Below are positions 5,816-37,608 of a DNA stretch of 40,498 nucleotides, piece by piece. Source of the DNA: a virus; IMG/VR virus record IMGVR_UViG_3300024256_000021, positions 1 through 40,498 of that record. The stretch is one strand, 5' to 3'. A program made the translations under genes and the position numbers. Under the pieces are notes generated by a model. It was not told where the DNA came from. It saw only the letters and a program-made list of their open reading frames with translations, and ran no database searches. Within the stretch, counting starts at the first letter, position 1. Each line of letters starts with the position of its first letter.

Positions 5816-6895
5816 TTATTTCCCAGAAAAGTTTGAAGCGTCCTTGGACAATTTTTCGTTAGGGGTAATCTGTAAATTCTTTATAATATTTAATTTCGAG
5901 TCTTTAACGGTATTAGGATCATTACTGACAATATTAACAAAAGAATCTCTTAATGTTTTTTTAGGTATGGTTATTTGATCACCTATTAACGCTTCAGACC
6001 ACCTAATTGTGTCAATTTCTGCTACAGTAAAATCACCTAATGAAGTAGTACCATCCATCAAAGGGTTAAAATCTACATTCCCCCTATCAACTATTAGTTT
6101 ATTATTGCTTATCTTTATACCCCAAGTAGTTTTTGGTATCTTTACCAAATTTGTGTTCATTAAAAGTTTTTCCAATATTATATCTAAACCAATATTTAAG
6201 TTAGTTTCGAATAACTCATAATTACCTTTAATATCTGCACTCACCTCTATTAATCGATTCATTTTAAACAATCCGTCTGGGACATTAATATCCACATTAA
6301 AGGTTGCACCCCCACTAATATAATTAGTTGTTAACGTATCAATCTTAATTTGTGTTAATGTAATTTTTATAGTGACATTAAAATACCCCAAACCACTTCC
6401 CACATTTTCACTAAAAGACTCATCATATAATACACTTCCAACCTCTTTATTAAGTTCCCCATTAACCAATGGAATTATAATCTCTTGGATATCAGGTGTC
6501 TCAATGTACTCAGATATTAGTGTACTTAACTTAACACCATAATTTTCTGTTTTAGATTCGACTGCCTTTATAATATTTGACACAGCTCCTGCGAATTTAT
6601 CCCCAAAACCATCCGTTTCACCTGTATTATACCCTAATTGTTGTAACGTATCGCTTAAATTTTTCACTGTTTCGACATTGCTCCATTCACCAAAAAGATA
6701 ATCCCCCAACGATTTGGCAACTTTATCACCAAACCCTGGTTTTCCAGTATCATATCCCTTAGATGTTAAAAATTTTTGTATTTGTAAAAAATTCGGACCA
6801 GGTAAATTATCTTGTTCCGTCAGTAACCTATCTCCTTTCTGAAAAGAATAGAGTCTCTTAATTTTATCTATTTCCTCCGTCAAAGATATTTTCAT
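5816..6895 (-). CDS. Probable packaged protein with leader and two peptidoglycan-binding-like repeats
   Basis: 359 aa. The N-terminus reads LTEEIDKIKRLYSF and then GDRLLTE followed by Q28; Leu25-Thr26-Glu27 fits an (L/I)-x-E prohead-protease site, so residues 1-27 look like a capsid-targeting leader. Residues about 36-67 and 78-110 form two similar repeats (IQKFLTSKGYDTG then GFGDKVAKSLGDYL; LSDTLQQLGYNTG then GFGDKFAGAVSNII) that resemble PG_binding_1 domains. The remaining 250 residues are beta-strand rich, with alternating hydrophobic and polar residues such as GGATFNVDINVPDG, and I do not recognise them. There is no signal peptide. The start is set by ATG at 6895, 5 nt after the upstream stop, which suggests an operon with the acidic 247-aa gene. 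A role in contacting peptidoglycan after ejection is inferred. Confidence 0.75.
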   Translation of the reverse strand: MKISLTEEIDKIKRLYSFQKGDRLLTEQDNLPGPNFLQIQKFLTSKGYDTGKPGFGDKVAKSLGDYLFGEWSNVETVKNLSDTLQQLGYNTGETDGFGDKFAGAVSNIIKAVESKTENYGVKLSTLISEYIETPDIQEIIIPLVNGELNKEVGSVLYDESFSENVGSGLGYFNVTIKITLTQIKIDTLTTNYISGGATFNVDINVPDGLFKMNRLIEVSADIKGNYELFETNLNIGLDIILEKLLMNTNLVKIPKTTWGIKISNNKLIVDRGNVDFNPLMDGTTSLGDFTVAEIDTIRWSEALIGDQITIPKKTLRDSFVNIVSNDPNTVKDSKLNIIKNLQITPNEKLSKDASNFSGK

Positions 6896-6900
6896 AGTTA

Positions 6901-7644
6901 CTATTCTTCGTCTTCTTCGTTATTAGAAGTAAAGGAATCTCTTATTTCCTTTTTATCGTAATTATCAACATCGCTCTGAGTTAACGTATATTCAGTTTCT
7001 TCTTCGGTTGCTTCATACCCTTCTTTATCTGACCAAAAATCAGTTAAGGATACACTATATGGAAACGAATCCATTGACCTCATTTCTAACCTTTCTACTG
7101 GTGTAGGGTTTCTTTTTTCGATTTCTTTTTCTAAATCATCTATTTTACCTATTACCTGATCCATTCCTCCTACTTGGGATTCTAAATCTGATAGTTTACC
7201 CAATAGCTCATCCATTTTAGTATTAATACCATCTACAGATGTTTTTGTTTCTTCAGTTTTATCAACTATATCTGTAACATCTACCTCAACAGTTTCTTCT
7301 CCTCCCATATCGTCTGAAGCAAATTCATCTTCAACTTCAGCACCTTCACCAGCATCGGCAAATGGGTCAGTTTCTTCAGTACCAGTCGCATCAACCGCAA
7401 ATGGGTCTTCTACTGGAGTATCAGTTTCTTCACCTTCTGGTGTTTCATCACCAGCAGCATCAGCCGCAAATGGGTCCTCTACTGTATCATCAGTTTCTTC
7501 ATCCCCAACTGGATCTTGTTCATTTAAAATCTCGTCAAATAAAAAATTTTCTTTTTTATCAGTTTCTTCGGGAACATAAAAACTATATTCCAATAATTGT
7601 TGGTGTCTTTTTAATTCTTCAGATAATAATTCTTTCTTATTCAT
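6901..7644 (-). CDS. Highly acidic protein with DPFA repeats and leader-like N-terminus
   Basis: 247 aa, function unknown. The N-terminal part (NKKELLSEELKRHQQLLEY) is charged and helical, and Leu40-Asn41-Glu42 followed by Gln43 fits the same (L/I)-x-E pattern seen in neighbouring proteins. Residues about 45-115 are a low-complexity acidic stretch with four imperfect repeats around (V/T)(E/D)DPFA, mostly Glu, Asp, Thr, Gly and Ala. Residues about 120-165 form a probable coiled coil (VDGINTKMDELLGKLSDLE and onward). The C-terminus ends in a run of Glu and Asp. Strong acidity plus coiled coil would also suit a scaffolding or assembly protein. It sits between the 62-aa and 359-aa genes in the same operon. 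Confidence 0.75.
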   Translation of the reverse strand: MNKKELLSEELKRHQQLLEYSFYVPEETDKKENFLFDEILNEQDPVGDEETDDTVEDPFAADAAGDETPEGEETDTPVEDPFAVDATGTEETDPFADAGEGAEVEDEFASDDMGGEETVEVDVTDIVDKTEETKTSVDGINTKMDELLGKLSDLESQVGGMDQVIGKIDDLEKEIEKRNPTPVERLEMRSMDSFPYSVSLTDFWSDKEGYEATEEETEYTLTQSDVDNYDKKEIRDSFTSNNEEDEE

Positions 7645-7649
7645 TTCTA

Positions 7650-7838
7650 TTACATTAATAATTGTCTACCATCATTTGTTTTGTAAACTTTATTTACCCT
7701 CTCAACGATTTCTTTACCATCGTTGATTAAACATTCGTCACCTATACACTCTTTTTCTTCAGTATCGTTGTCACCCAAGAAATTATCTAGTTTTTTCTTA
7801 AGAACGTCTTTTTCGTTTGTGTCGTCTATATTATCCAT
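7650..7838 (-). CDS. Small unknown phage protein
   Basis: 62 aa, acidic in the N-terminal half with a CIGDEC pair of cysteines near the middle and a basic end, VNKVYKTNDGRQLLM. I do not recognise a domain. It ends 5 nt before the 247-aa gene starts, so it is probably co-transcribed. The start ATG at 7838 is preceded by an ATATTTATA element at 7853-7861. Confidence 0.6.
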   Translation of the reverse strand: MDNIDDTNEKDVLKKKLDNFLGDNDTEEKECIGDECLINDGKEIVERVNKVYKTNDGRQLLM

Positions 7839-7852
7839 AATACTTCTTTAAC

Positions 7853-7861
7853 TATAAATAT
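7853..7861 (-). promoter_or_regulatory. ATATTTATA element before the 62-aa gene
   Basis: Minus-strand TATATTTATA, 14 nt upstream of the ATG at 7838, in the 27-nt space after the 137-aa gene. Possible promoter core; inferred from recurrence at several gene starts. Confidence 0.3.
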
Positions 7862-7865
7862 AAAA

Positions 7866-8906: not shown

Positions 8907-11900
8907 TTATGGATTATTATCATCTTTTAAGTCAAAAGCCAATAAAACTGATTCAAAAGCGTTATACGCTTCTTCTGGTGTTACCTTGGTGCACGATATC
9001 TCATTAGTTAGTGCGAAATCTGAAGAGGTACCATCCCTCTCCTTATCTGTCCCATTTCCACCAGCTGCGTCATACGAATTTTTATATGGACCCTTTAAAG
9101 TCGATTCGTTGGTTGGCTTTTTAGTTTTCCAAACATAAATTGCTGCATTAAAGGATTCGATAAAATTATTTTCTAAAGTATATGGTTCAATAAACACCGA
9201 TGAAAAACCTAAAGGAGATTTACTATATTCAAAATATTCTCTTCTTCCCGTAATATATAAATATCCTCTAGGTTTAAATCTCCACCCATCACCAGGATAT
9301 ATATTATAATATTTTAATTTTGCAGCCGCTATCTTTACGAAGGCTTCATCTGATATCTCATCACCCGTAGAACTTTTTGTGGAAATTGTGTTAACTTCTT
9401 CATACTCACTATCTCCTACCGAAACGTAAGCAACGTTATTATCTCCAGACCCAGTATATGATGGGGTACTACCTAATATCCCTTTGGGGTTGTTAGCTGG
9501 AATACTTAATATATCTTTAAATGGGTTATCAGCAGGTATTGTAGAATTATCACCATAAAACATTGTTTTACCTGAATATATTGTACTATTATCAAATTCC
9601 GACTCTTTAATACTATCGTCTTCACTACTCCAACTGATGGTATCATTCCCTAAATAGTTCGATTGTACCATCACATTTGCAACAAACATACACACTTGGG
9701 AATTAGTATAAATACCCTGTTTTTCCATAAAAAATCTAACACCATTTAAATCACTTTGTATTCCGTCTTCTCCAAATGAACTTAATCCAGTTACATAATT
9801 AAAGTCTACCCCCATTTCTTTAAAGTTACTTACCTTCCATTTTGTATCAAAATCAAAACGGTCTTGAGGGTCTAATACACCTATTTTATATGTATCGTTT
9901 TTAGACGTTTTATTAATAAGTTCAATTTTAGGTATTTCATTTGTTTCATTTAAATCTAGATTTAAATCTGCCAATATTTCTTCATTAGGTTCACTTATAA
10001 ATTTAGATTGTCTAACACCTGTAAAATTTGTAGTCATATGGTTAGGGGATATACTATGATTTACACTAGTTATTAAATATGCCCCATTAAAAAACGGAAC
10101 GTTTTCTAAATTAAAATACATTAATGGTTGTATGTTCATACAACCTAATGCGTCTACTTTACATGTATATGACCTAGTTTTAAATAACTTAAGTAAATCC
10201 GTACCTTGATATACCTTTTGGGTTCCCCCTCTTTTATCTACCAATTCTGATAATGCCTTAAAATATTCACCAGTTTCTTTATGTTCTTGCTGGTTTAAAG
10301 AGACGTTTTTAAATATCGTTTGGTTTTCGGCACCAAACCCAACTCTAAACGCAACTAATGAATTATCACCCTCTTTAATCATATCAGAAGGTGGACTATC
10401 TAAGGAGAATCCGTCATTGGCAAACGCGTACGTACTTTTCTCACCAATATCCAAAGCTTTTGAGGCTGCACCAATATAAATACCACAATACATTGGACCC
10501 GAAGACTTATTATTCTGAAGTGTAGTGACAGGTTTAAACATTCTAGACACTTCTTCAGCGTCTTTATAATTTACAAATGTGGGTAGTATCTGAAGTAAGA
10601 AATTACTATCTCTTAATAATTTTGACATAAAGAAATATACACTTGTTTGTAGGTTACTCCCTAAAGTTAAAAAACTGCTTAAATTTATAGTTGCTTTATG
10701 TCCAATTTCATTCCAACCTCTATCAATAAACTTAAAATAATCATATAAAGATCTGTTACCATCTCCACCTGAACCACCACAAACATTAAAACATTGTTTT
10801 GTATCTGAAACCCACTTATCGTTTATATTTTTAAAATAATTATAAATCTGTAATTTTATTTTATTCGTAGTTGCGTTTGCACTTATTTCTGATTCTGAGT
10901 CATCTTGAGCTGTTTCTTTTTTACCATTTTCTATATTAGAGTATGTCACTAAAAAACTTTTTATATAGGCTAGTATTTCTGACCTACTAGCTTTAAGGTT
11001 TTCTGGTATACCATTTGGTTCGAAAATTCCTGGAGCCAAAACTATCATACTGGTAATTTTTAATAGTCTGGCTTTTATCTCCCTTGCAGCTTTCGATATC
11101 TGTGTCTCGGAATGTGTAGTATTAGACCTGTAAACTTTCATATCTTGTTCAAAAGATTTGAATTTGGATTTATCTGCCCAATCGGTGAATTTTTTAATAA
11201 GTAACTCTTTTGTCGCTGCAGGTATATTTAACAATTCATCTTCTAAAGGTAAATCGGAAGTATTACCATTTAAAGCTTGGTAACCGACTTTTGTTAAATA
11301 ACAATTATTAGGAGAAGAAAAATCTGAATACCCGCAACCTCCATTTGATGGTGTAAATTCCCAATCAATATCCCCTTCTTTGTTTTTCCATAGGAGTCCA
11401 CCTATAAAATACGCGTAATATAGTGGTAGGTTAATTATTTTTGCGTTCTCATATTTTCCATTAGGAAAAGCTGCACCTAATACCGCCTCTTTGAAAGTTT
11501 TAAATGGTAATGTAGATAATAGTAAAATAGCTTTAGCTCTATCACTTTGAACAGTATAAAAATCACTTTGGATTAAAAACTGTGGGTACGGACAAGTATC
11601 ACCACTTACAAAATTTGTTCTATTTAAAAATTTCCCTTCTGGTGTCGTACTTCCCGTTAAATCAATAGTAGATAAACTATCTATTTTAAAATCTTTATAT
11701 ATTCCGTTATCTATCCCCTTCAACCCTATAGAGACTTCTTTATCCCAAACATTATACCCCAAATACGTAGTTATATTATTATTTCTTAAATCTTGACTCC
11801 TATACTCACTACTATTATCTGTCGTAATTTTATCAGTTTTAATTGCACTATATCTTGAATTTTGTGTTATCTCAATAGGTAATCTTTTAGAATTATTAAT

Positions 11901-20582: not shown

Positions 20583-21671
20583 TTAAGCTTTTAAATTTGT
20601 TATTTTACCTTTCCAATTCACAATTGCACACTTAACGTCTTTTGTTGTTTTATCTATCCATTTTATAGTCCCACCATTTTGAATACCTCTATCAGCGTTC
20701 TGAAAAGTCATCAAGCAATGTTTCCCATCAATTAGTAACTCAACAGTTTTACCTTCATTTTTATTGCTAGCTGACATAACTTTAAATTTCTCTGTATTCG
20801 ATAATGATTTACCATGTGTCATACAGTCCACATTGATCCCATCATTTGCTGGTGGAGCTGGATTAGGGTTGAATTCTATAGTTATCTCTTCATACTGTAT
20901 TAATTTCTCTGCCACAGAATTACTTTTTTTATTTTTATTTGGATCTCTTTGATTTTTAATTCTAAAATATTTACCCAATAACGAACCAAGATCATTCGCT
21001 ACAGTATCTGCGTCATCTAACATAACCTTAAATTCTCTACACCCCTGGTTAAATTCATCTCTTTTTGTATAGTCAAAAATAATTTTTGCATGATTGTTTC
21101 TACAATCTCTAGCATAATCATCCGCAATTTTACCTTCATGATCCGAAAGGGTTACAATTTCAGCCTTTATCGCATTTTTAAATGTTTGATGACATCCTGA
21201 TATGTTTAAACAGTCCGATGGATCAGATGTATATTTTTTAACAAAGGCGATACAATTACAAATATCGGGATCAACCTTTCTTTTAAAGGGGTTTTTTAAT
21301 TTTGTTTGTCCAGTAGTTAATTGATATACTTTATATGCCCCAACCACTGGTGCTGCTAATACCTTACCAGCGTATTTACCACCAACTATAACATAACCAA
21401 CACCCTCAGAGCCTTTTCTTTCCCACTCCTCAAAACTTTTAATTTCATCTGTGGTGAAGACACTCTCCCAAGTCACGTCACCACTTATTAAATCTTTACC
21501 GAGTTGATCTGACCTGTCACCAATAGTTAACTCTCCCTTATCTTTACTAACGATATCATCATACTTTTTATTTGTTGTGTTATCATCATCAATTTGTTCA
21601 AGTAATAAACTATCTATATAGATGTTAATATCCTCGACTATCTTATTTATATCATTAATATTATTCATCAT
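20583..21671 (-). CDS. Cysteine-containing unknown protein with packaging-like leader
   Basis: 362 aa. The N-terminus DINKIVEDINIYIDSLLLE followed by Gln26 is a charged helix ending in Leu23-Leu24-Glu25, matching the (L/I)-x-E leader pattern. A hydrophobic stretch near 94-115 (GYVIVGGKYAGKVLAAPVVG) could insert in a membrane. Residues about 135-215 contain clustered cysteines (DPDICNCIAF, SDCLNISGCHQ, YARDCRNNH, FNQGCREF), unusual for a cytoplasmic protein and perhaps metal-binding or disulfide-forming after ejection. No family recognised. It lies between the chaperone and tape measure genes, where T4-like phages do not usually carry such a protein. An ATATTTATT element lies 13 nt before its ATG. 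Confidence 0.7.
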   Translation of the reverse strand: MMNNINDINKIVEDINIYIDSLLLEQIDDDNTTNKKYDDIVSKDKGELTIGDRSDQLGKDLISGDVTWESVFTTDEIKSFEEWERKGSEGVGYVIVGGKYAGKVLAAPVVGAYKVYQLTTGQTKLKNPFKRKVDPDICNCIAFVKKYTSDPSDCLNISGCHQTFKNAIKAEIVTLSDHEGKIADDYARDCRNNHAKIIFDYTKRDEFNQGCREFKVMLDDADTVANDLGSLLGKYFRIKNQRDPNKNKKSNSVAEKLIQYEEITIEFNPNPAPPANDGINVDCMTHGKSLSNTEKFKVMSASNKNEGKTVELLIDGKHCLMTFQNADRGIQNGGTIKWIDKTTKDVKCAIVNWKGKITNLKA

Positions 21672-22684: not shown

Positions 22685-25051
22685 TTAATTAGATTCGAAA
22701 AATTTATTGAAACACCATGGCATCAAATTAACATATGCGACAAAGTCAGTTATACATTCTTCTTTTGACTTTTCTCCATAAATATTACCATAAGAACAGA
22801 AATAAGGGTAATTTGTCTCAAAATAATTAATATTTTTTTCGTTTATTTTAAAAACAACCTTACCGTTGGAATTTACCCAGTCAACTTTTGCTGGAATTAA
22901 AACTCCTTCTACCTCAGATGGTTCCAGTATTTCTACGAAATCACTTTTATTATTATTCCATGTCAGAAACCAATAGGCTTGAATTGATCCACAGTCAATT
23001 TTTTCGTCACCCTCCAAATCTTCATCTAATTGCCATCCATAATCTTTGTTCGGTTCTTCCAACCCATAAGTCACAGACGGAAGACTAATAGTTTTGTCTT
23101 TACTTATCTCACCTCTTTTAACAGCATCTTCCTCACAAATTGATGCGTACGATTTCTGAATTGTTATTTCATTTTCACTACATTTCGCTACTTTTGTTAT
23201 ATCAATGACATTTTCACCACCAGCGTTTATCCATACAACCTCCAGATCTTCTATTTCTTTTTTAACCACATCACACTCACTCACACTAAATATTTTGTTG
23301 TTATAATTCTTAATATCTTTAAATCCATCAGCAGAGTATATATCTAATTTCCCAATAACCCCTTTACAGTTCTCCCCATTATTGATTTCCTCTGTTAACT
23401 GTTTTAATTTCTCATAAATAAAAAAATACTTTTTGCAATTACATTTATGTCTTATTCTTTCTCCAATACCGTAATTTTTCATTTGATATTTACCCTCAAC
23501 ACCGTCATTATAGTTACCCAAGTCGATTTTAATCATATCTGCTTGCTTCTGAATTTCTTCTTGGGTGTTGTCAAACGTCTCAATACCTGCAGCAATAGCA
23601 TTTCCAAGTTTCTCCGAATCCACCCCCCCATACCCAGTAATTTGAGTAAAAATGTCATTCATTATTGTCTGTTCCGAACCACTCGTTAATGCATTTTTTG
23701 CAATCTCCGATGCTTTTGCCTCACAATCAAAGTTTACTATTTCCTTTACTGTTAAGTTTTCTAAGGCATCTTCAACCGCTTTTTCCCCTTTTGACTGGAT
23801 GATCTTTGTCAATGATTCTGAAGTTTTTTTAAAACTTAACGACATTCCACTAATAAGTGTAATCCCCCCTCTAACAGGCCATGCCCATGGTATTATAACA
23901 TCAAAGAAATCGACATTCATCTTTTTCCTTGGGTTAGGATTTAAAGTATCCAACTCCTCAACATGTACCCTAATACAATCGTCCAATTCATACTCCTTCA
24001 CAATCGTATAACTATCCTTAACTAAACCTGAATTCTTATCATCATACTCATTATACGTTTCGTTGTTCATTAACATTATACATTCATACAACCAAAAAAT
24101 TCCGGCAATCGTCATTTCAATAGCAGTTATTCCAAGAAATTTCCAAAGTAAACCCCATTTCGCCCCAAGAATACCCCTTTTAATCACATCAGCATCTGTA
24201 ACTTGTATACTTTTCTTTTTGTTCGTTTTTTTGTTGAAACTCGAACTTGATTTGTCTGTAGGTATCAATTCATACCCTTTGGATTTTAATGTTGTCTGAA
24301 GCTGTGATGTAGCATCAGCGGATTTCAAAAGCATATAAGTATCATAATCTTTGTGGCTCACTAGAAAATCCCCAGCACCAAAATTATTATGTCTCACCAT
24401 TTTTTTCACTGAGTATTTCTTCCCCCGTAAAACGGACATTTTAGTGTTTACAAACTGAGTTATATTTTGTTTAGATAGATATACAAAATTTTCTGAGACA
24501 GCTCCTTTAATATCACCCCTATTTATAATTTTACTTCCATCAGACATACCAATATTGATAAGTTTGGGATTATCGTCAAAGATTTCAGCAACATATTTTT
24601 CTTTTTGTTTCAAAGTTAAATTAGTGTCATCTAACCTATTAATTATAGAAGTAACACTATTATTTCCTCTTTTTTGTAATACATCGTCAACACCAGCAAT
24701 CACTTTAAAATAATTATTCAAACCATCCACCTCAACACTATTTAATTCTACCCCCGACTTCTTTAAATCATTTTTAATAGAGTTAATACCAATGAGTCCA
24801 TCAGCACTTCTTGTGTTTAACAATTCACCTATATTTTTAGAAGATATACCATTGTTTAAGTCACCCGTTAAATTTTGTAATCTCTGTATTTGTGGTGTTT
24901 TGACACTAATATTTTTCAATATATTGAAGAACCCCTTTCCAAACCCCTCTGTCAATAATTGTTTATTTTTTAATTCTATGGATTCATCATAAGAATATCT
25001 ATTAGACATTCTTTCTAATAGTAAATTAAATTGATTTCTATTGTATTTCAT
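22685..25051 (-). CDS. Large unknown membrane-segment protein with packaging-like leader
   Basis: 788 aa. The leader starts MKYNRNQFNLLLERMSNRYS and ends QLLTE then Gly36 (Leu33-Thr34-Glu35), fitting an (L/I)-x-E cleavage site. A hydrophobic segment at about 294-330 (WGLLWKFLGITAIEMTIAG and onward) is a likely membrane helix; a weaker one lies near 380-400 (VIIPWAWPVRGGITLISG). The C-terminal half has many cysteines (for example RHKCNCKKYF, NGENCKGV, AKCSEN, DCGSIQ). No enzyme motif is recognised. A virion protein that inserts into the host envelope after ejection would fit. The first 16 residues are similar to those of an orphan 28-codon ORF at 25055-25141 just upstream. Confidence 0.75.
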   Translation of the reverse strand: MKYNRNQFNLLLERMSNRYSYDESIELKNKQLLTEGFGKGFFNILKNISVKTPQIQRLQNLTGDLNNGISSKNIGELLNTRSADGLIGINSIKNDLKKSGVELNSVEVDGLNNYFKVIAGVDDVLQKRGNNSVTSIINRLDDTNLTLKQKEKYVAEIFDDNPKLINIGMSDGSKIINRGDIKGAVSENFVYLSKQNITQFVNTKMSVLRGKKYSVKKMVRHNNFGAGDFLVSHKDYDTYMLLKSADATSQLQTTLKSKGYELIPTDKSSSSFNKKTNKKKSIQVTDADVIKRGILGAKWGLLWKFLGITAIEMTIAGIFWLYECIMLMNNETYNEYDDKNSGLVKDSYTIVKEYELDDCIRVHVEELDTLNPNPRKKMNVDFFDVIIPWAWPVRGGITLISGMSLSFKKTSESLTKIIQSKGEKAVEDALENLTVKEIVNFDCEAKASEIAKNALTSGSEQTIMNDIFTQITGYGGVDSEKLGNAIAAGIETFDNTQEEIQKQADMIKIDLGNYNDGVEGKYQMKNYGIGERIRHKCNCKKYFFIYEKLKQLTEEINNGENCKGVIGKLDIYSADGFKDIKNYNNKIFSVSECDVVKKEIEDLEVVWINAGGENVIDITKVAKCSENEITIQKSYASICEEDAVKRGEISKDKTISLPSVTYGLEEPNKDYGWQLDEDLEGDEKIDCGSIQAYWFLTWNNNKSDFVEILEPSEVEGVLIPAKVDWVNSNGKVVFKINEKNINYFETNYPYFCSYGNIYGEKSKEECITDFVAYVNLMPWCFNKFFESN

Positions 25052-25148: not shown

Positions 25149-26021
25149 TTATTTGAATACCTTTAACATATCATCTAAGCTTCCGTACCCTATCATCTTC
25201 GCCCCATTATTGTCAGTCACCAATTGATCTGTAGAGAGACCAGTGGACCATTTCCTACTGCTGTGAGGATCAGACATGTCAGATAGGGGGTTATATCCCG
25301 TAGGATTATTGATACTATCAGTTAACATCGTATCTAAACTCTTGGTTTTGATAAACCCTTGTTTATAATACCCAGCAACACTAATATCATTGTACATATC
25401 ATTATCAAAATCATACTTAAATTTATATTTCACATATTTTATTATTGTGCTATGATTAATCAATTCATTAGATCCTGCAACTGTTAATAACGCAGTAGAA
25501 GGATCTCCAATTGTTCGCGTCAATTTTTCGACACTATTTAAATTAATTTCGTATGGTAATTTTAAATAAAAACCACCATCCCCGTCATCCCAAAAATTTA
25601 TTCTTTCTACTGCGGTAGTACCAAGCGCAGTAATAAGATTCAAATACTTAACATAGTAAAAACATATACCCCCATTTGACGAAAAATTACTCATAATTTT
25701 TCCATTTTTTACTATGGACCCACCATCATAACTTTTAACCCTATCATAAATCTTCTTCATGTTTGGTTTTTCGTAACATATATTTTGCACATTTTTTTCA
25801 ACTCCACCACCCTTTTTAATAAAATAGTCCTGTGATTTTAAAAACGCGGACGCTTCTTCAGGATTAATATCACTACCTGAAGCAGTAAATTCAACACCAT
25901 CTATTACACCATCATTATTGGTGTCAGGATTACCCTGCTCATTTATTATATTCCCATATAACCTTTCTTCTGTAAAAAGTTTTTTAATCCTTTCTACCTC
26001 TTCTTTTAATCTATTTTTCAT
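25149..26021 (-). CDS. Unknown protein with packaging-like leader and EF-hand loop
   Basis: 290 aa. The leader EEVERIKKLFTEERLYGN is almost the same as that of the 564-aa MORN protein (EEINRIKSLFTEERMFGN), and ends Ile26-Asn27-Glu28 before Gln29. Right after the predicted cut, residues 33-44 (DTNNDGVIDGVE) are a perfect 12-residue EF-hand/dockerin-type calcium loop with ligands at Asp33, Asn35, Asp37, Asp41 and Glu44. The rest (for example GICFYYVKYLNLITALG and FKYDFDNDMYNDISVAGYY) is a mixed fold I do not recognise. It is followed after 97 nt by the 788-aa gene and preceded by the 933-aa gene (25-nt gap). Confidence 0.72.
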   Translation of the reverse strand: MKNRLKEEVERIKKLFTEERLYGNIINEQGNPDTNNDGVIDGVEFTASGSDINPEEASAFLKSQDYFIKKGGGVEKNVQNICYEKPNMKKIYDRVKSYDGGSIVKNGKIMSNFSSNGGICFYYVKYLNLITALGTTAVERINFWDDGDGGFYLKLPYEINLNSVEKLTRTIGDPSTALLTVAGSNELINHSTIIKYVKYKFKYDFDNDMYNDISVAGYYKQGFIKTKSLDTMLTDSINNPTGYNPLSDMSDPHSSRKWSTGLSTDQLVTDNNGAKMIGYGSLDDMLKVFK

Positions 26022-26046: not shown

Positions 26047-28848
26047 CTATTCTAAACCATCAAAATTGAAATTGACAATATCGATATTATTTTTTTTGTA
26101 GAATTCTTCATCTTCTTTGGATAATGGATTAGAGTTATGTGCATTTATTATGTCTTTAATTATATTCGGTTTTACTGATTCTGTTTCTAAATATTCTATT
26201 TCTGCGTTATATTGAGTTTCTAAGAAATCTTTAATTTCAGATTCAGTTTTATTTTCCCCCTTCATTGATTGTACGATTTGGACTAAATCTTCAAGTCTTG
26301 ATTTAACATTTGTTAAAGGTTCACCAATAATACTATTCTCCCCATTAATTATTATATCCTCTAAATTTTTCTTAGGTGTAATACCATAATCATTTAGGTA
26401 TTTATAAATATTATCTTTAAGGTTGTTTTGGATTTCAGTTATCAATGTACTATATTGACCGAATTGTTTTAAGTTATCTTTTAATATTTGTGATTCATTG
26501 TCATCTGGGTTAATATCTGTTGATACTCCTAACATTTTCACCAGCCCAATACTTGGAACTAATTCATCAAAGAACTTCAAACCTTTCTTTACTGCCTTAG
26601 CCGTTTCTTCTGGATAACCAAACATTAATGCGAATAAAGAACCTTGAAACAAAACGCTTTTTACATTAGGTACATATTTAGTGTAATTTTTTAATATTGT
26701 TGTAAAATCTACTCCTTTATCAAACTCTGATTGAATGTATTTTCTTAGTGTAACATTCTTTTCCGATGATTTTAACATTTTATTAAAAGCACTCTTATTA
26801 CTTGTAGATACACTTTCCATCTGCTTTATGAAAGCCTTCATCTCTTTAGTACCAGCAAAAGACATCACTGAATTATTTAGACTAATTAATTTTTTTATCT
26901 CACTTGACGATAAACCTTCAAACGACTCCTCAAAAGCCTCTTTCTGGAATTTCGACCGTTGTTCCTTAGATAACGATTTCCACGCTACTTCCGAGTAGTT
27001 TTTCATTGAGTTTTTTATGACTTTGTTATAAATGTCTGTATATTTTTTACCGTTTACTACCAAACCTTTGGCTACTTTACCTAATTTACCAGCGCCAAAA
27101 GTAAAAACTGAGAAAAATTGTAATCCCGCATTAAATTTCCACCCTTCATCTTGTTCATATACATAACCTAAACCACTTACAGCATCAATTGCTATCGACA
27201 ACATCGCCCCAGATGCTAAACACCCTGCACTACCAGTAAATGGACAAGTTAAGAACAATACTGCAATTGACATAATATCGAACATACAATGCCAATCAGA
27301 TGGACATTTCTTAATAAAATCATCCGCCTTGTAATAAAAGTCTCTAGTGTCGTGCATAGTTTGACCTAACCTCTTCGCTGGGTTATAAAAACCAGCACCA
27401 AAGGCTGACCCATTAAAAACATTCATATTTTTATTTAGTGTGTTAACACACCCACAACCCATAATAAAGTCTTTATTACCATAGTCATCTTGATCTCTTA
27501 CCTCACCATCAACGTCTACACCACTACCGGCATTATATATCCAATTTCCCATATTATTTCCCTGTTGACAAAACGTTTTCCAAGTACTATATTTATATTT
27601 TGCTGGACCCTGTAGTACTGACTGAAGAGTAGCCAAAGGCTGTAACCCCCCTACTGGAGTTCTACTACTATCATAAACAGCATCATCACAAAGGTACGCC
27701 TGTTTAGGGTTCTGAGTATCAAATCTATCATTCCAATTTTTTATCATATCCAAAAGTGAGATATACCCTTTCATCATCGACTCTACAGGTGTACCATTTT
27801 CCTTTTTAAAATTCACTATATCATTCTCAATTTCTGATACTAGGTCTTGAGCTGCATCCCACTTATCATCTTCGGACTCGGACTCGACACCACTAACATC
27901 ATAGTTAAATTTCCAAGGTTTCCGTTTACCACCAGGTCGGGGGGTTGCAATCAGTTTCTTAGCTTGATAGTAACCTTTTTCTTCTTTGAACTTCTTCACC
28001 CATATATCTCTCATAATAACGTCAGGGGTATAATTTTGACCTTTGTAAGTGTTATGATATAGTGACCATACTTCATTTACTACCCACTCTGGGGATAATA
28101 AGGTGGTTCTATTCATATCAAAAAAGTCGTCTAAACCTAAGTCCCCTACCCCCACCGCAACACTAAGGAATTTGGTTACAAATTTTTGATCTACCATCGT
28201 AAGAGACCCATCCTTCCATCCGAACACCTTTCGACATTCATTCCAATTGTTTTTTGTTTTATTATAACTACTTACATATTCTTTAAGATCTATTGAGTTA
28301 GCAACCCATTTTGGTAATATAAGTTTGTCCATCGAAACCTTTGTTAATGTGGTTTTAACTTTATTTCCGTAATACTCTTTTTCTTTACTGGTATACATGC
28401 TGGGGGGTTTTGCATCTCTTTTAACACCGTCCCAGCTATCTATAGTATTTAAATCATTTTCTCCTTTCTTCTTATTACCCACCCCCTTTATTTCTTTCTG
28501 TCTTTCTTTTGTCGACCTATAATACAACTCACCACCTCTACTCCAAGCAACCTTAAAATGTTCATTACCATATGCACCACTTTTAGAAAACCCATCCGTA
28601 TACCCTAATTTCTTTAATTCATTATTTATGGTGTCGAGTCTTTTTTTATCTTTATAAACCCACTCTCTAAAATTATCACCATCAGATTTATTTTTTATAA
28701 GTTTATTATAAAGATCTTGATACGTTTTAAGTGTATCATAATTAAAGAACAATTTTCTATTTAATATTTTATCGGCACCATTTTTGGTTTGTTCATTTAA
28801 AAAAACGCGACTATACTGAGATTCCGATATAATTATTCTGTTACCCAT
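26047..28848 (-). CDS. Very large unknown protein with leader and hydrophobic core
   Basis: 933 aa. A short leader (IIISESQYSRVFLNE then Gln20) is of the same kind as LTESQY/LTESDL leaders nearby, with Leu17-Asn18-Glu19 as possible cleavage site. A long hydrophobic region at about 517-560 (MSIAVLFLTCPFTGSAG and AMLSIAIDAVSGLGYVY) and others near 570-590 and 735-750 could span or enter a membrane. Around it are Gly/Cys-rich motifs such as FIMGCGCVNTLN. The arrangement of a membrane-like segment between soluble domains recalls translocation parts of large toxins, but no catalytic domain is recognised. It starts 5 nt after the 564-aa gene ends, in one operon. Confidence 0.72.
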   Translation of the reverse strand: MGNRIIISESQYSRVFLNEQTKNGADKILNRKLFFNYDTLKTYQDLYNKLIKNKSDGDNFREWVYKDKKRLDTINNELKKLGYTDGFSKSGAYGNEHFKVAWSRGGELYYRSTKERQKEIKGVGNKKKGENDLNTIDSWDGVKRDAKPPSMYTSKEKEYYGNKVKTTLTKVSMDKLILPKWVANSIDLKEYVSSYNKTKNNWNECRKVFGWKDGSLTMVDQKFVTKFLSVAVGVGDLGLDDFFDMNRTTLLSPEWVVNEVWSLYHNTYKGQNYTPDVIMRDIWVKKFKEEKGYYQAKKLIATPRPGGKRKPWKFNYDVSGVESESEDDKWDAAQDLVSEIENDIVNFKKENGTPVESMMKGYISLLDMIKNWNDRFDTQNPKQAYLCDDAVYDSSRTPVGGLQPLATLQSVLQGPAKYKYSTWKTFCQQGNNMGNWIYNAGSGVDVDGEVRDQDDYGNKDFIMGCGCVNTLNKNMNVFNGSAFGAGFYNPAKRLGQTMHDTRDFYYKADDFIKKCPSDWHCMFDIMSIAVLFLTCPFTGSAGCLASGAMLSIAIDAVSGLGYVYEQDEGWKFNAGLQFFSVFTFGAGKLGKVAKGLVVNGKKYTDIYNKVIKNSMKNYSEVAWKSLSKEQRSKFQKEAFEESFEGLSSSEIKKLISLNNSVMSFAGTKEMKAFIKQMESVSTSNKSAFNKMLKSSEKNVTLRKYIQSEFDKGVDFTTILKNYTKYVPNVKSVLFQGSLFALMFGYPEETAKAVKKGLKFFDELVPSIGLVKMLGVSTDINPDDNESQILKDNLKQFGQYSTLITEIQNNLKDNIYKYLNDYGITPKKNLEDIIINGENSIIGEPLTNVKSRLEDLVQIVQSMKGENKTESEIKDFLETQYNAEIEYLETESVKPNIIKDIINAHNSNPLSKEDEEFYKKNNIDIVNFNFDGLE

Positions 28849-28853: not shown

Positions 28854-30548
28854 TTATACAACTCTACTTAGAAGTTTAGCCCATTGGACTGGACCCTTTT
28901 GGATTATTCCCGCCACAGTAAGTTCCTCATTTTCGGGTAACTCTATAGCTTTATTGACAGCGTCTTCAAACCCATCCTTAAACTGTTTATTTCTACCGAA
29001 TATCTTCTCTTCAGGTTTAGAAATTATTCTATACTCATTCTCACCCACTTTTTTAATTTTTCCGCGACTTCTGCCATTTATTATAATTTCGTATTTTTGA
29101 CCAATAACACCACCATCGGGTTTTTCATAATCGATATTCCATTGTTTTTTTAATAGATAAACACCCTTTCCCTTTTTAAATAGACCAATTTTTTCTAATT
29201 TACTATGGTAATTACCTAAACACCATTCTATATAACCTCTCGCGTCATCTTCCTTATCACCAAAAGCGTCTTCCATTGTCATACCTTCCTTAGCCAACTT
29301 AATATAATTACCCATATTTTCTCTACACCCTCCAGGACCAGAAAATATCTTTTTAAATTCCCCTTTATCTTGCCTATCGTCTTTTCTTTTTTCCGCCACA
29401 GTTGTTATATTGTCAACACCGTCAGAGTCAACAGGGACATAAAACATTTTACCGTCATTATCCACTAACTTACCACTATCATCCATTATCTTCATCGATT
29501 TTGATGGTGTTTTTGAATTCTTCTCACTAAACATACTACGTAATATATCAAAAGATATCCTTGTTCCACCCACAGGTTTCCAATCGACACTTTCAAAATC
29601 ATCAATATCTTTCCGTTTCTTTATAATAGTTTCGTCTGTGGGGTTTTTATACCATATATCATAAAATAATATATTATCACCCTCTTTCTTAACATTAGTT
29701 AAGATAGTGTCATATTCAGTTTTATATTCAGGGGTATCATTTCCAGCTCCACTATCAGTACCAGCTCCACTATCAGTTCCACTATCAGTATCATTTCCAG
29801 CTCCACTATCAGTATCAGTATCAGTATCAGTATCAGCTCCAGTATCAGTATCATTTCCAGCTCCACTATCAGTATCAGTATCAGTATCAGCTCCAGTATC
29901 AGCTCCACTATCACTATCAGTATTACCTTCAGGTTCCGTATAAGAACTATTTATGGTTGAAGCTTTAACTTTACCCAAAGAATCAACCTTACTTGAGTTT
30001 ATTCTCGTTTCAATAGCGTCCATCCCTTTTTGGTTAGTTTGTTGTTTCCAGTTTGTCCCATCAGTACTATACCAATATGTACCATCTGGTAGCTTTGAGT
30101 AACTATACTTACCCCCTTTATCTTTAAAAGTCTCCACAGTACTTACAACATTTGACTTATCTGGAGTCACTAACTCACCATTTACAAATGTTCCAGATGT
30201 CACTGTTCCATCCTCCTTAGTAAATGTACCCTTACCATTCTCCATATCATCTTTGAATTCTCCGACATATATTTCACCAAAACTATTTTTATACGTCCCT
30301 TTACCACTTCTCTTACCATCTACATATCCACCCACATATTCAAAATCCACATCTTTCCAAGTACCTTCCCCATTTTTACAGTCACCTGCAACACATTTCC
30401 CTGATATTTCTCCTGGTGGTGTTATACCTGTTGGTATTTCCACCTCTGTTGATGCTTCAGTAATTAAGTTACCGAACATTCTTTCCTCTGTAAACAGAGA
30501 TTTAATTCTATTAATCTCTTCGTTTATTGATTTATATTTTCTCTCCAT
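28854..30548 (-). CDS. MORN-repeat protein with Asp/Thr/Ser/Gly low-complexity linker and leader
   Basis: 564 aa. The leader INEEINRIKSLFTEERMFGN ends Ile29-Thr30-Glu31 before Ala32. Residues about 58-125 contain three MORN-type repeats (GEGTWKDVDFEYVGGYVDG, GKGTYKNSFGEIYVGEFKD, GKGTFTKEDGTVTSGTF). Residues about 208-271 are a low-complexity stretch of Asp, Thr, Ser, Gly and Ala (units such as DTDTDSGAGN) encoded by a short DNA tandem repeat. The C-terminal half (for example GGVIGQKYEIIINGRSRGKI) is a globular region I do not recognise. MORN motifs usually bind lipids or proteins at membranes. The protein lies at the head of a run of leader-bearing genes. The leader and linker suggest a virion-carried protein with a flexible spacer. 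Confidence 0.78.
   Translation of the reverse strand: MERKYKSINEEINRIKSLFTEERMFGNLITEASTEVEIPTGITPPGEISGKCVAGDCKNGEGTWKDVDFEYVGGYVDGKRSGKGTYKNSFGEIYVGEFKDDMENGKGTFTKEDGTVTSGTFVNGELVTPDKSNVVSTVETFKDKGGKYSYSKLPDGTYWYSTDGTNWKQQTNQKGMDAIETRINSSKVDSLGKVKASTINSSYTEPEGNTDSDSGADTGADTDTDTDSGAGNDTDTGADTDTDTDTDSGAGNDTDSGTDSGAGTDSGAGNDTPEYKTEYDTILTNVKKEGDNILFYDIWYKNPTDETIIKKRKDIDDFESVDWKPVGGTRISFDILRSMFSEKNSKTPSKSMKIMDDSGKLVDNDGKMFYVPVDSDGVDNITTVAEKRKDDRQDKGEFKKIFSGPGGCRENMGNYIKLAKEGMTMEDAFGDKEDDARGYIEWCLGNYHSKLEKIGLFKKGKGVYLLKKQWNIDYEKPDGGVIGQKYEIIINGRSRGKIKKVGENEYRIISKPEEKIFGRNKQFKDGFEDAVNKAIELPENEELTVAGIIQKGPVQWAKLLSRVV
29735..29922. repeat. Short tandem repeat coding the Asp/Thr/Ser/Gly linker
   Basis: Imperfect tandem units of TATCAG and CCAGCTCCACTATCAG, repeated about a dozen times within the MORN-protein gene. 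They encode DT/DS and GAG(N/T) units. Copy number is likely to vary by slippage. Confidence 0.8.
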
Positions 30549-34552: not shown

Positions 34553-34571
34553 TTTTTAAATGGTCTTAATA

Positions 34572-35024
34572 TTAATTAAATGGAACGATCCCAATAGAAT
34601 CTTGAAAACCCTTTTTTATGGTTGCAAAAACAGTTGAATCCTTCTTACTACAATCTTCATCCTGACAAGCACCCACTAACCTTAAGAAGTCTATGGATTG
34701 AATAGCCCTTTGCCATTTACCATTAGAGAATACCTTCCCAGCACTAACTCGACCTTCTTTATTTTTTACATATACTGAATAAAAGGGTAATTTAAGTTTT
34801 TTAGTTTTTGGGTCTTCAAGTTGTGTCTTATATATTAATACAGTACCCGGTAATTTAACATGTGATGCTCCGCCAGGTTTAAACGGAAACTCCCATTGTC
34901 TCTTCCCACCTGTGGTAGCATCGGCAACTGGAGCTTCATCTTGTTCTTTTATTACTTTTTTTACAATACGTCTTAAATCTGACTCTGTTAGATTTATAAC
35001 TTTTCCGTTTTTCTTAATTTTCAT
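34572..35024 (-). CDS. Small leader-bearing protein, unknown
   Basis: 150 aa. Leader LTESDLRRIVKKVIKE then Gln28, with Ile25-Lys26-Glu27 as possible prohead-protease site. The leader DNA contains 49 bp identical to the 3' end of the 391-aa gene (36440-36488). The mature part is basic, about 120 residues (FYSVYVKNKEGRVSAGKVFS), with two cysteines in ACQDEDCSKKD; not recognised. It is the last gene before the bidirectional terminator. A packaged cargo protein is the favoured reading. Confidence 0.75.
   Translation of the reverse strand: MKIKKNGKVINLTESDLRRIVKKVIKEQDEAPVADATTGGKRQWEFPFKPGGASHVKLPGTVLIYKTQLEDPKTKKLKLPFYSVYVKNKEGRVSAGKVFSNGKWQRAIQSIDFLRLVGACQDEDCSKKDSTVFATIKKGFQDSIGIVPFN
34951..34999. 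repeat. 49-bp direct repeat, copy 1 (leader of 150-aa gene)
   Basis: Identical to 36440-36488 over 49 bp. It codes for NLTESDLRRIVKKVI at the N-terminus of the 150-aa protein. Confidence 0.9.
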
Positions 35025-35051
35025 TTTTTTTATTTTTATTTTTTTATTTAA

Positions 35052-35483
35052 TTACCCTCTATCAAACTGAGGTTCTACATTATCAGCCGGTCTTTCATCT
35101 CCTCTTTCATTACTAACAGAAAAATCTAGGTCTTCAATTATAACATCATTAACACCAATAACCATCTTATACGCATCTAAAGCGTCATCAACATGTTTTG
35201 ATAATCTATCATAAGAAACATTGGACATTTTAGATTTATTGGATTTATCAACGATTTTTCCAACCTCAATTATAGTCTCCTCTAACTCTTCATTTAATTC
35301 TTTTAAAGCACCAGATAATTCGTAAGCGTATTTTGTATAACTATACCCTGTACCTTTAAACATTCCACCAATACCTTTTAATTTAGATCGTAATCCTTCA
35401 TCTAAAGATATCTTTTTCTTAATAATCCTTTTGATGTCGGATTCGGTTAATGTTATTATTTCACCTTCTTTCTTAATTTTCAT
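35052..35483 (-). CDS. Small leader-bearing helical protein, unknown
   Basis: 143 aa. Leader MKIKKEGEIITLTESDIKRI and onward to SLDE then Gly30 (Leu27-Asp28-Glu29), diverged from the 150-aa leader at DNA level but very similar in protein. The remainder is helical (ELNEELEETIIEVGKIVDKS and HVDDALDAYKMVIGVND), perhaps a bundle, with an acidic C-terminus. No family recognised. It lies 27 nt upstream of the 150-aa gene and is preceded by an ATATTTATA element at 35510-35518. Confidence 0.72.
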   Translation of the reverse strand: MKIKKEGEIITLTESDIKRIIKKKISLDEGLRSKLKGIGGMFKGTGYSYTKYAYELSGALKELNEELEETIIEVGKIVDKSNKSKMSNVSYDRLSKHVDDALDAYKMVIGVNDVIIEDLDFSVSNERGDERPADNVEPQFDRG

Positions 35484-35509
35484 AATATATTAATATTATT
35501 ATCTTTTTA

Positions 35510-35518: not shown

Positions 35519-35535
35519 AAGTAACTTATAAAAAG

Positions 35536-36357
35536 TTACCTCTTTATAATCATTTTCTTCTTTTTTGGATTGTCTGGGTCTGAGGTATCATACACCAAGA
35601 ACTTTATATCAGGATATTTCTGTTTTAATTTTTCTTCTATTAACTTTTCAACAACCTCAACGTTACTGATATCATCATCACTAAACCCAATACTAATACC
35701 TTCAAAATCATTGGTATCTTGATATGAACTAACTCTATCTACAACCCTATCAACAAAATCTTCGAACGCTATCTTCTTACCCTCTTCTGGGTTTGTGGAA
35801 TCTATATCCAACCCCCATTTATTAATAAATTCTTCTGAAGAAACTGGGTGGTAATCTTGTAAATTAAGATATTCGTCCATTGTTACCCCATTTAAATTGT
35901 TTTTCATCTCTTCTTGTTCATCATAACTAAAGGATTTTCGAATAATTAACTTTATACCGTCTTTAATCGCTCGTGGTGGGTTTGATCTGGCAGTTATAAT
36001 AGAGAAGTCGCTACCACTAATTAAAGCTTCTTTAAACTTATTAAAACTAGGTCCATATCTACGACTATCTAACGCTTCTTTAGTGTCACTTATAAAGGCA
36101 TCATATTCTTTAAAATCTTTAAACGCTTCACCCTCATTATCATTTAAAAATCTAAACTCCGTACCTAACTTATGTCTAATACTTCTAAATTCTTCTGTTG
36201 ATACGGATACTGGAACCCAAGCTAAACCATTAACACTATAATCCAAATGAATTCTTGTTGGCATCATAAGAATATTATCGTCCCAATCAAAAGAGTAAGC
36301 TCTTTTTTTAAATTCTTTTAATAATTTATATTGAGATTCGGTAAGTTTAACTTTCAT
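35536..36357 (-). CDS. HAD-like hydrolase with leader-like N-terminus
   Basis: 273 aa from the ATG at 36357 (MKVKLTESQYKLLKEFKKRA). An upstream GTG at 36393 extends the frame by 12 codons but lies inside a terminator hairpin, so it is rejected. HAD motifs: SFDWDDNIL (Asp24, Asp26; the usual Thr/Val after the second Asp region is Asn28), SIITARSNPP (Thr122), Lys194/Lys195 and GFSDDDIS (Asp227-229). These would catalyse phosphoryl transfer, probably phosphatase; the substrate is unknown. The first 16 residues carry an LTESQY leader with Leu13-Lys14-Glu15, as in the cargo proteins, but the leader is short and runs directly into the HAD core, so cleavage is less certain. Confidence 0.75.
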   Translation of the reverse strand: MKVKLTESQYKLLKEFKKRAYSFDWDDNILMMPTRIHLDYSVNGLAWVPVSVSTEEFRSIRHKLGTEFRFLNDNEGEAFKDFKEYDAFISDTKEALDSRRYGPSFNKFKEALISGSDFSIITARSNPPRAIKDGIKLIIRKSFSYDEQEEMKNNLNGVTMDEYLNLQDYHPVSSEEFINKWGLDIDSTNPEEGKKIAFEDFVDRVVDRVSSYQDTNDFEGISIGFSDDDISNVEVVEKLIEEKLKQKYPDIKFLVYDTSDPDNPKKKKMIIKR

Positions 36358-36362
36358 ATTCT

Positions 36363-36371
36363 TATAAATAT
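36363..36371 (-). promoter_or_regulatory. ATATTTATA element before the HAD-like gene
   Basis: Minus-strand AATATTTATA, only 5 nt before the ATG at 36357, between the terminator at 36386-36406 and the gene. If it is a promoter core, the transcript would be nearly leaderless. Confidence 0.3.
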
Positions 36372-36385
36372 TCTTGGAAATAAAA

Positions 36386-36406
36386 AAACCCACATATAGT
36401 GGGTTT
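36386..36406 (-). terminator. Terminator after the 391-aa gene
   Basis: Stem AAACCCAC (36386-36393) with GTGGGTTT (36399-36406), loop ATATA, followed on the minus strand by a run of seven T. It separates the 391-aa gene from the HAD-like gene. Confidence 0.8.
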
Positions 36407-36432
36407 AATTATTAATTTATTTGTTTAAGGTT

Positions 36433-37608
36433 TTATTTTATTACTTTTTTTACAATACGTCTTAAATCTGACTCTGTTAGATTTATAATATTACCATCCT
36501 TTTTAATTCTCATGGTTTTTTGTTCGTTTACGTTGTATTTAGACTTACCCTTACTTCTCTTCTTAAAAGGGTTTCTAATTTTTAACCTTCTTCTCTTCTT
36601 TACTTTTTCTTTAGCTTTATTTTCGAATTCTGCATCAAGTTGTTTTTCAATTTCTTTTTCTTCTTTCCTACTTGGGAAGACATTTGGTAGAGGTTCATTA
36701 GGGTCAAAATCTGCTTCAACATCAGTGTTAACATCAGGTACAACATCAGGTACAATCTCAGGTCCAATCTCAGGTCCAATCTCAGTGTTAATATCATCTT
36801 CTGGTTGATCGGGTGACCCTTTTCCTGCTCCAATTGCACTAATTAAAGCATCATGTGTTTTTTTACCATAATACCCATCATCTTTAAGTTCTAATTCACC
36901 TTGTACTATTTTAACTTCTTTAATAGTGTTGTTACCATAAGCACCGTCAACATCGATAACTTCAGACCCTTCATACTCATTCATATGATCTTGAGCTACC
37001 TCAACAGCTTCTCCACAATCACCTTTTTTAAGGTAACCTTTCCCCATTTTTAATTTATCGAAATACCAATCAATGTCTAAATTTCTTTTACACCACTTCT
37101 CTTGAATTTTAGGTTCGGTACTTGAATCATCATTACCAGACATATCATCATTACCAGACATATCAGGTGATGGTAGATCAACAGGTCCAGACATATCATC
37201 ATTAGATGGTGTCGTAGAATTCTCTATTGGTGCAGCTTTCCCAAAATTCTTAAACACCCAATTTATAGTTTGTTCTTCATTTGGAAGTACATCGTTAATT
37301 ATTACCAGTCCTGAACCTGCGTTTCGTGCCCCACCCCAGTTTTTTGTTGGTCGTATTTCAAAATATCTATCATCAGATGATGGTTTTATTGTGGACATTA
37401 ATTCATCACCACGTTTAATATATATAGTATCTTTGTCTGAGTTTGCTGCCCAATTATCGTAAGAAGGTAATACTTCCGAAATTCTTTTACGCATTGGTGA
37501 TAAAGCCACACTTTCATTTAACGATTTTGGTGCGTTCTCATTAATGGGTTGTAGCCCCATCATTCTACGCATAAAATTCGTTTCGTTAATTCTTTTTTTA
37601 TAATTCAT
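36433..37608 (-). CDS. Peptidoglycan-binding-domain protein with leader-like sequences at both ends
   Basis: 391 aa. N-terminus INETNFMRRMMGLQPINE then Asn25 (Ile22-Asn23-Glu24). Residues about 172-262 form a PG_binding_1-like region with two repeats (KKGDCGEAVEVAQDHMNEYE then DVDGAYGNNTIKEVKIVQ; LKDDGYYGKKTHDALISA). Linkers are low-complexity: MSGNDD repeats near 150 and GPEIGPEIVPDVVPDV near 275-290. Residues about 325-360 are strongly basic. The last 26 residues (INLTESDLRRIVKKVIK at the end) equal the leader of the 150-aa protein and stop exactly before its cleavage Glu; 49 bp of the DNA are identical. The protein probably binds the cell wall when released. It lies just downstream of the tail sheath gene. 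Confidence 0.8.
   Translation of the reverse strand: MNYKKRINETNFMRRMMGLQPINENAPKSLNESVALSPMRKRISEVLPSYDNWAANSDKDTIYIKRGDELMSTIKPSSDDRYFEIRPTKNWGGARNAGSGLVIINDVLPNEEQTINWVFKNFGKAAPIENSTTPSNDDMSGPVDLPSPDMSGNDDMSGNDDSSTEPKIQEKWCKRNLDIDWYFDKLKMGKGYLKKGDCGEAVEVAQDHMNEYEGSEVIDVDGAYGNNTIKEVKIVQGELELKDDGYYGKKTHDALISAIGAGKGSPDQPEDDINTEIGPEIGPEIVPDVVPDVNTDVEADFDPNEPLPNVFPSRKEEKEIEKQLDAEFENKAKEKVKKRRRLKIRNPFKKRSKGKSKYNVNEQKTMRIKKDGNIINLTESDLRRIVKKVIK
36440..36488. repeat. 49-bp direct repeat, copy 2 (3' end of 391-aa gene)
   Basis: Identical to 34951-34999; here it codes for the C-terminal NLTESDLRRIVKKVI. Both copies are read in the same phase, so recombination between them would give an in-frame fusion and delete 1489 bp. 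Confidence 0.9.

Follow-up and report, generated by a model that had tools for sequence, protein, structure and literature searches.

The closest described system to the one reported here is that of the internal proteins of phage T4, in which propeptides are reported to direct proteins to the core, 10 residues of IPIII being sufficient, and the protease gp21 cuts after L/I-X-E (PMC9026906). The leader MKTYQEFIAE/A shared by ipII and ipIII has, according to the same source, been shown by experiment to be a targeting signal that gp21 cuts; ipI carries STITE/A and the capsid protein gp23 carries FLTE/A (strokes mark cuts, which in T4 were placed from the literature and elsewhere are predicted). 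As stated in the consulted part of PMC12373910, the leader alone is common to Ip1-3, each of which inhibits a different Type IV restriction enzyme after injection, and at least 10 internal proteins have been reported in T-even phages. The present analysis concerns the window, a linear virus fragment of 40,498 bases (IMGVR_UViG_3300024256_000021) analysed over its whole length, in which eleven genes begin with leaders ending in (L/I)-x-E. With a probability of roughly 0.77, these leaders are capsid-targeting propeptides working like the T4 internal-protein system. The set is best read as a greatly expanded analogue of that system, with new leader families, in T4-like phages whose hosts are probably Bacteroidota; its scale and its leader families would be what is new, the kind of system being already known.

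The eleven starts proposed in a preliminary description of the window were all found to be minus-strand ATG starts of long open reading frames (ORFs). As it had claimed, (L/I)-x-E closes a leader of 15 to 42 residues in 11/11 of these proteins, and the residue after the Glu is Gln in 6/11 (G, G, A, F and N in the others). For the start at 36357 the longest ORF opens at GTG 36393, and several homologues open at the ATG equivalent to 36357. The motif alone was rejected as evidence: 318 of 600 non-leader proteins (53%), taken from the window and six long relatives, have [LI]xE in residues 10-45, and shuffles gave 239 ± 11. A misleading example is ORF 59030-59524 of the 254-kb record G003, which has LLNEQ near its start and is presumably, by the look of its sequence, a ferritin-type helix.

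Since the motif alone is uninformative, hidden Markov models (HMMs) of the leader cores were built without LxE (class A, LTESDLRRIVKKV; class B, EEIxRIKSLFTEER; class C, ITESQYKRL). These models matched 250 N-termini versus 11 internal or C-terminal places in 1,400 ORFs from the window, the six long relatives (G005 being taken to 60 of its 71.5 kb) and other sheath loci, redundant contigs included; the bodies behind the matches form 50 clusters. Rebuilt models were run on 2,554 reversed ORFs, with 0 matches, and on 1,154 ORFs whose N-termini had been shuffled, with 2. In 41/54 representatives, one per body cluster and class, an [LI]xE has its Glu no more than 6 residues from the core, versus 4.0 ± 1.9 (maximum 12) in 1,000 shuffles; as leaders share ancestry, this count measures conservation and not 54 independent events. 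When the pattern is relaxed to [LIVMF]xE, Gln follows the Glu in 15/53, versus a background of 2.5%. Within the window, 6/11 leaders fall into classes A, B or C by HMM, a seventh (ORF 5816-6895) matches class E at E 0.0046, and for three more (6901-7644, 20583-21671 and 22685-25051) every diverged homologue found retains [LI]xE, as read by eye.

The leader, found on many unrelated bodies, is a module with its boundary at the Glu. Among leaders of the same class on different bodies, pairwise identity as far as the Glu lies mostly at 0.13-0.48, and once three residues past it values of 0.05-0.10 prevail; the value at the Glu itself is fixed by construction because it anchors the alignment. After the Glu, identity falls through 0.23, 0.13, 0.09 and 0.08 in class A, and through 0.10 and 0.06 in classes B and C. 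Leaders are also swapped between related bodies. ORF 35052-35483 of the window has leader A, and its homologous bodies in G006, L078 and L239 follow leader B; Glu-Gly is invariant in 8/8 sequences. L245 holds two genes, 74% identical over 173 residues, that bear leaders B and C. The alignment of the L245 pair starts about six residues before Glu-Gln, and BLAST alignments of swapped pairs mostly start two to nine residues before the Glu; the homologous part thus includes the cut site. This evidence consists of cluster 6 and of cluster 1 pairs read by eye only. Clusters 0, 2 and part of 1 were not used as swaps because they are chained by fused or repetitive proteins, and most of the 423 cross-class pairs, which stem from internal leaders of fused proteins, were left aside.

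A gp21-type protease, which the preliminary description had led us to look for, is missing from the window fragment and present in 15/15 leader-bearing records with full-length gp23 (15 of 37 records). PF03420 (gp21, Peptidase S77) was recognised, with E down to 5e-27, in 3/13 sheath relatives of 30-254 kb and in 13/24 long leader records, which were hand-picked from a set that also holds further leader contigs, e.g. of 304, 317 and 413 kb. G015 has gp21 near the record end without gp23, and G001 a gp23 fragment at the end without gp21, absences as expected of fragments. The 15 records are not independent, as the capsid N-terminus is shared in G006/G009/G021, G014/G027 and G017/G025 and nearly the same in G032/G036. 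In an alignment of six gp21 sequences, including those of T4 and the cultured Flavobacterium phage immuto, GE-x(2)-HP and SSRG are kept in 6/6. H95 and S158-S159, which we take to be the catalytic residues, are likewise invariant in 6/6, T4 included.

The capsid protein carries the same motif as the leaders, its N-termini being LLNE/S, LLTE/A, LINE/A, LLKE/A or LIYE/A in 15/15 records and LxE/[AS] in 23/23 variants from gp21 loci. Position P3 is L or I in 15/15 and never Ala; the leaders themselves are no test of Ala at P3, as the search pattern admitted only L, I, V, M and F. A scaffold-like protein encoded between gp21 and gp23 has SLxE in 29/40 variants (one counted by eye, its ORF start lying further upstream). 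The record L205 carries terminase, portal, gp21, the scaffold-like protein (SLRE/Q) and the capsid protein (LLNE/S). It comes from one metagenome with L001, whose sheath protein is 100% identical to that of the window, and L205 is possibly, but not necessarily, a piece of the window phage. Two gp21 genes, L398:1420-2613 (G022) and L400:1429-3255 (G016), each carry an in-frame interruption beside the conserved His motif; one follows ALDHPS, the other stands between ALGE and NHPE. By eye the insertions look intein-like, with a Cys start and the ends HCLWSGN-S or HWTKN-C, and that of G016 is long enough for a homing endonuclease.

The most probable alternative is that the leaders sort proteins to the tail or neck (tail tube, tape-measure region, baseplate) and are cut there or never. 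It has in its favour that the leader genes of the window alternate with genes for sheath, tube and baseplate and that some bodies have PG-binding or MORN domains, which would suit the tail or envelope. However, the L/I-X-E protease is reported to act on the prohead (PMC9026906), the capsid protein bears the same motif, and leader genes elsewhere adjoin terminase (L102:8097-8951, L205:159-1019) or stand far from the sheath gene (G003), so that we regard sorting to the tail as improbable.

According to a second alternative, the leaders are chaperone, stability or regulatory tags (e.g. for GroEL recruitment or turnover), the Glu is incidental and they are no protease substrates. Consistent with this, 7/32 class C representatives are without [LIVMF]xE within 22 residues of the core, and the T4 gp23 N-terminus directs proteins to GroEL, as the title of a cited paper has it. 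Yet it leaves unexplained why body homology starts around the Glu in swaps and why the leaders match the capsid-protein site, and it is very improbable. Class C in G014 is often without a clear site as well. The site-less class C leaders may be targeted yet uncut, as T4 IPIII tolerates (targeting without cutting, PMC9026906), or class C may serve another role.

Exchange is also visible in the DNA. The first 84 bases of gene 34572-35024 of the window, which encode the leader and the Gln codon, are also exactly those that open an unrelated gene of L005, and beyond them the two genes share nothing. Two leader A genes compared in blocks of 30 bases have 30, 30, 28, 13, 4, 9, 9 and 3 identities. 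Such identical leader DNA on unrelated genes demonstrates mobility by recombination or duplication, as the weakest alternative would have it (5' gene segments neutral at the protein level, spread by recombination for start codon or translation context), but the 26 codons compared between 34572 and 35052 (9 identical, 8 synonymous, 9 non-synonymous) indicate protein-level conservation, one leader consensus runs across many contigs and the boundary is a protease motif, leaving this explanation scarcely credible.

When IMG/VR was scanned by pattern, 67 stretches had leader B and at least 120 had leader A, the leader-bearing records reaching 413 kb. The pooled set holds 619 ORFs (393 distinct sequences) with leader classes A-E. 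Class D has the form MKxxIxxILKE and class E grades into B; the profiles of both were built with the site in them, so that counts of the site in these two classes carry no weight. The bodies of 617 leader ORFs fall into 148 clusters, 91 of them singletons (blastp, E 1e-3, so that distant relatives may be split); the ORF counts include contigs fetched repeatedly, and the cluster count is not inflated by exact copies. By HMM, leader ORFs number 30/335 in G003, 16/450 in G014 and 16/369 in G017, and some leader types escape the models. No match was obtained by tblastn of leaders A and B against 50,697 phage records, four leader queries against PHROGs gave nothing better than E 0.086, and no earlier description of these leaders was found in the open-licence PMC literature, a coverage outside which subscription papers and most preprints lie.

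The bodies agree with the claim that the cargo is mostly of unknown function: 90 bodies, out of 109 clusters (of 148) with a representative of at least 110 residues not crossing a stretch border, gave matches to 6 Pfam families and to 18 PHROGs, none of them in more than one body. Matches include nudix, LysM, MORN, ParB-like and one 'portal', without a common theme, and the cargo would consist of putative effectors. The labels first given to window bodies fared unevenly. MORN and one PG_binding_1 were above the cut-off, a second PG-binding domain was below it, the EF-hand had no Pfam match and HAD was unconfirmed. For the last (35536-36357) there was no PHROG match, the best PDB fold match had E 0.34 and the best PDB sequence match E 0.25; its AlphaFold model (mean predicted local distance difference test, pLDDT, 71.6; predicted template modelling score, pTM, 0.52) gives a motif-like HAD resemblance only. 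The model of 35052-35483 (pLDDT 66, helical) had no PDB match below E 0.07. Confidence is low over the leader or its junction in both models.

As in T4 with IPI, IPII, IPIII and Alt (PMC9026906, PMC3012670, PMC12373910), unrelated bodies have a common leader ending in (L/I)-x-E, a gp21-family protease is encoded, the capsid protein bears the same motif and the cargo varies. Unlike in T4, where the leaders are given as 10-19 residues (PMC9026906), those of the window have 15-42; there are at least five classes, several per genome; the 148 body clusters compare with the at least 10 T-even internal proteins of PMC12373910; and 30 leader ORFs are recognised in a single 254-kb record. Because the leader HMMs miss the T4 ip genes, the relation to the T4 signal is taken as one of analogy. 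In phage P1 the N-terminal 30 residues of DarB package a reporter, and several internal proteins are defence-related, a likeness to the present case; the Dar N-termini have no common consensus according to the authors (PMC9024508), whereas the leaders here have a strong one. SPN3US (and phiKZ) have many head-internal proteins, as is proposed for the present phages, and propeptides at the N-terminus that are removed behind a three-residue motif with Glu in last place. Their motif in SPN3US is A-X-E, and shared exchangeable leader families go unmentioned in the available portion of PMC10052503; unlike SPN3US, the present phages are placed among the T4-like ones by their gp21, gp23, sheath and tube.

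The cultured phage immuto (host Flavobacterium sp. LMO8, source a Baltic Sea mesocosm), read outside bases 100,001-109,999, has an annotated prohead protease gene and a capsid protein with IVSE/A. Two of its proteins share MKKQILSEQF[RK]RMQ[KF]LAGIITE and are dissimilar from residue 34 on. The record holds another leader, NF[ND]L[RK][SK]FL[TV]ENKLT, at three places, and the two readable cases align beyond it (residues 72 and 63) and may be relatives.

By analogy with T4, the leader, amphipathic or charged, would bind to the scaffold core while the prohead grows and draw in the protein fused to it. At head maturation a gp21-type serine protease would cut after the Glu of (L/I)-x-E, freeing the cargo inside the head, with the same cutting rule applied to the major capsid protein and often to the scaffold-like protein. 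The cargo would leave with the DNA at the next infection, and could act in host takeover or against host defence. If the leader holds all the information for targeting and cutting, any reading frame can be put behind it by recombination, and many unrelated bodies with few leader types would therefore be expected.

Several observations weigh against packaging in the head. No head genes were found within the window, many leader genes stand among tail genes, and almost no body has a recognisable function. Leaders at other places than the N-terminus would be unexpected for a purely N-terminal signal: of the 11 places mentioned above, 8 are inside fused proteins, a wider scan gave 21 more such matches of all kinds, and one copy stands at a C-terminus. 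Besides the site-less class C leaders, 11/40 variants of the scaffold-like protein have no site, and the scaffold-like role itself rests on gene position because no PHROG match was found. The leader HMMs gave 0 matches among 113 ORFs of the T4 region holding the three ip genes, and one off-site stretch only among 298 immuto ORFs. Nor can the second-leader pair of immuto serve as a clear example of unrelated bodies, because its alignment passes the leader. On balance, the earlier head-cargo interpretation is the best available, well supported but unproven.

Of the 1,400 ORFs, 8 have an internal leader of class B; an in-frame Met precedes it in the 5 that were read in context, as if two leader genes had fused. 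These proteins (L031:9910-13509, L065:5716-9237, L030:9423-12917, L027:9965-13525 and four others) have about 1,040-1,200 residues, with the second leader B at about residue 900-940.

The positions of the window leaders are detailed in Table 1. The homologues of 6901-7644 in other records have ITE, LTE, LTE, LYE and LTE before QDP. Among the homologues of 20583-21671 the third aligns from residue 99 onward only, and 2 of the 5 of 22685-25051 are near-identical. The N-terminal leader of 36433-37608 has no independent support, the homologues found at that end being identical copies. The class A copy at the C-terminus of the same protein ends one residue before the Glu, is preceded by NVNE/Q and is followed by a terminator-like hairpin and a T run (read by eye). 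It is possibly a C-terminal propeptide, by analogy with the one reported for T4 Alt (PMC9026906).

Table 1. Leaders and leader-like segments of the window (iE, independent E value)
Feature	Length (residues)	Position	Strand	Motif	ORF	Remarks
Leader, class B/E-like	27	6815..6895	-	LLTE/Q	5816-6895	Class E HMM iE 0.0046
Leader, LLSEELKRHQQLLEY type	42	7519..7644	-	ILNE/QDP	6901-7644	[LI]xE/QDP kept in 5/5 other records
Leader	25	21597..21671	-	LLLE/Q	20583-21671	[LI]xE in 3/3 homologues (ISE, IVE, LGE)
Leader, N..FNLLLERM type	35	24947..25051	-	LLTE/G	22685-25051	FNLxxERM and [LI]xE in 5/5 homologues
Leader, class B	28	25938..26021	-	IINE/Q	25149-26021	HMM B match
Leader, class C	19	28792..28848	-	FLNE/Q	26047-28848	HMM C match
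Leader, class B	31	30456..30548	-	LITE/A	28854-30548	MORN repeats (above cut-off); HMM B match
Leader, class A	27	34944..35024	-	VIKE/Q	34572-35024	HMM A match; leader DNA shared with L005 gene
Leader, class A	29	35397..35483	-	SLDE/G	35052-35483	E29-G30 invariant in 8/8; A or B on homologous bodies
Leader, class C	15	36313..36357	-	LLKE/F	35536-36357	HMM C match; residues 1-20 low pLDDT
Candidate leader	24	37537..37608	-	PINE/N	36433-37608	PG_binding_1 body; motif only
Extra class A leader copy at C-terminus		36436..36513	-	VIK-stop	36433-37608	70/78 bases identical to 34572-35024 leader

The window is a piece of a T4-like phage genome. Ribonucleotide reductase, a DnaB-type helicase, a 5'-3' exonuclease, UvsX and a single-stranded DNA-binding protein were recognised in it, as well as baseplate proteins, tail tube and tail sheath. 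The sheath protein has 288 confirmed relatives in IMG/VR, 80 of which were kept; the annotated phages listed for it have 30-37% identity over the matched part. The host of the window phage is likely a member of the Bacteroidota. The capsid protein of G003 has its best cultured-phage matches in immuto, Microcystis phage Mel-JY01 and Rhodothermus phage RM378, and relatives in five bacterial genome contigs, from 3 metagenome-assembled genomes (MAGs) of Bacteroidota, 1 Prochlorococcus single-cell genome and 1 Mycoplasmatota MAG. The contig filed as Prochlorococcus (L124, QCKH01000009.1) has class C leader genes near the capsid gene of this relative and is probably an attached or infecting virus.

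Other genes of the window are as follows. The tail sheath (37715-40498) has at least 927 residues, and its sheath-family matches start only at residue 489, so that a large extra N-terminal part is present. In a baseplate-region protein of 1,823 residues (8907-14378), residues 1684-1752, close to the C-terminus, gave an endolysin-type match (E 1.6e-6). Nuclease-like domains occur in 32175-33797 (plus strand) and 30659-31537 (minus strand), namely DUF7487 with sub-cut-off REase_MTES_1575 and Mom, and DUF559; both genes sit between the tail tube and leader genes and are possible homing endonucleases. A small protein encoded on the opposite strand (33918-34493, plus) has a signal-peptide-like N-terminus and no Pfam or PHROG match.

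A broader proposal is that the leaders form an open packaging code, in which several leader classes (A-E and others) serve one core and one protease and any gene given a leader becomes injected cargo; at least 30 cargo proteins per virion would be possible, as would layers by class and internal or C-terminal copies acting as further tags. We hold this extension to be tentative, its chances lying somewhat below even. If true, it would provide a barcode exposing hundreds of injected proteins in uncultivated, mostly Bacteroidota-infecting T4-like and huge phages.

The reading of the leaders as propeptides is directly testable in immuto, which is cultured and similarly built. If it is true, a short tag would single out, among the many unknown genes of uncultivated phages, those whose products are packaged and enter the host first, a group in which functions in anti-defence and takeover are to be expected. 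The tag would point to an almost unexplored protein space, because only six Pfam families were found in 90 tagged bodies, and the leaders could be used as new portable signals when phage heads are to be loaded with chosen proteins.

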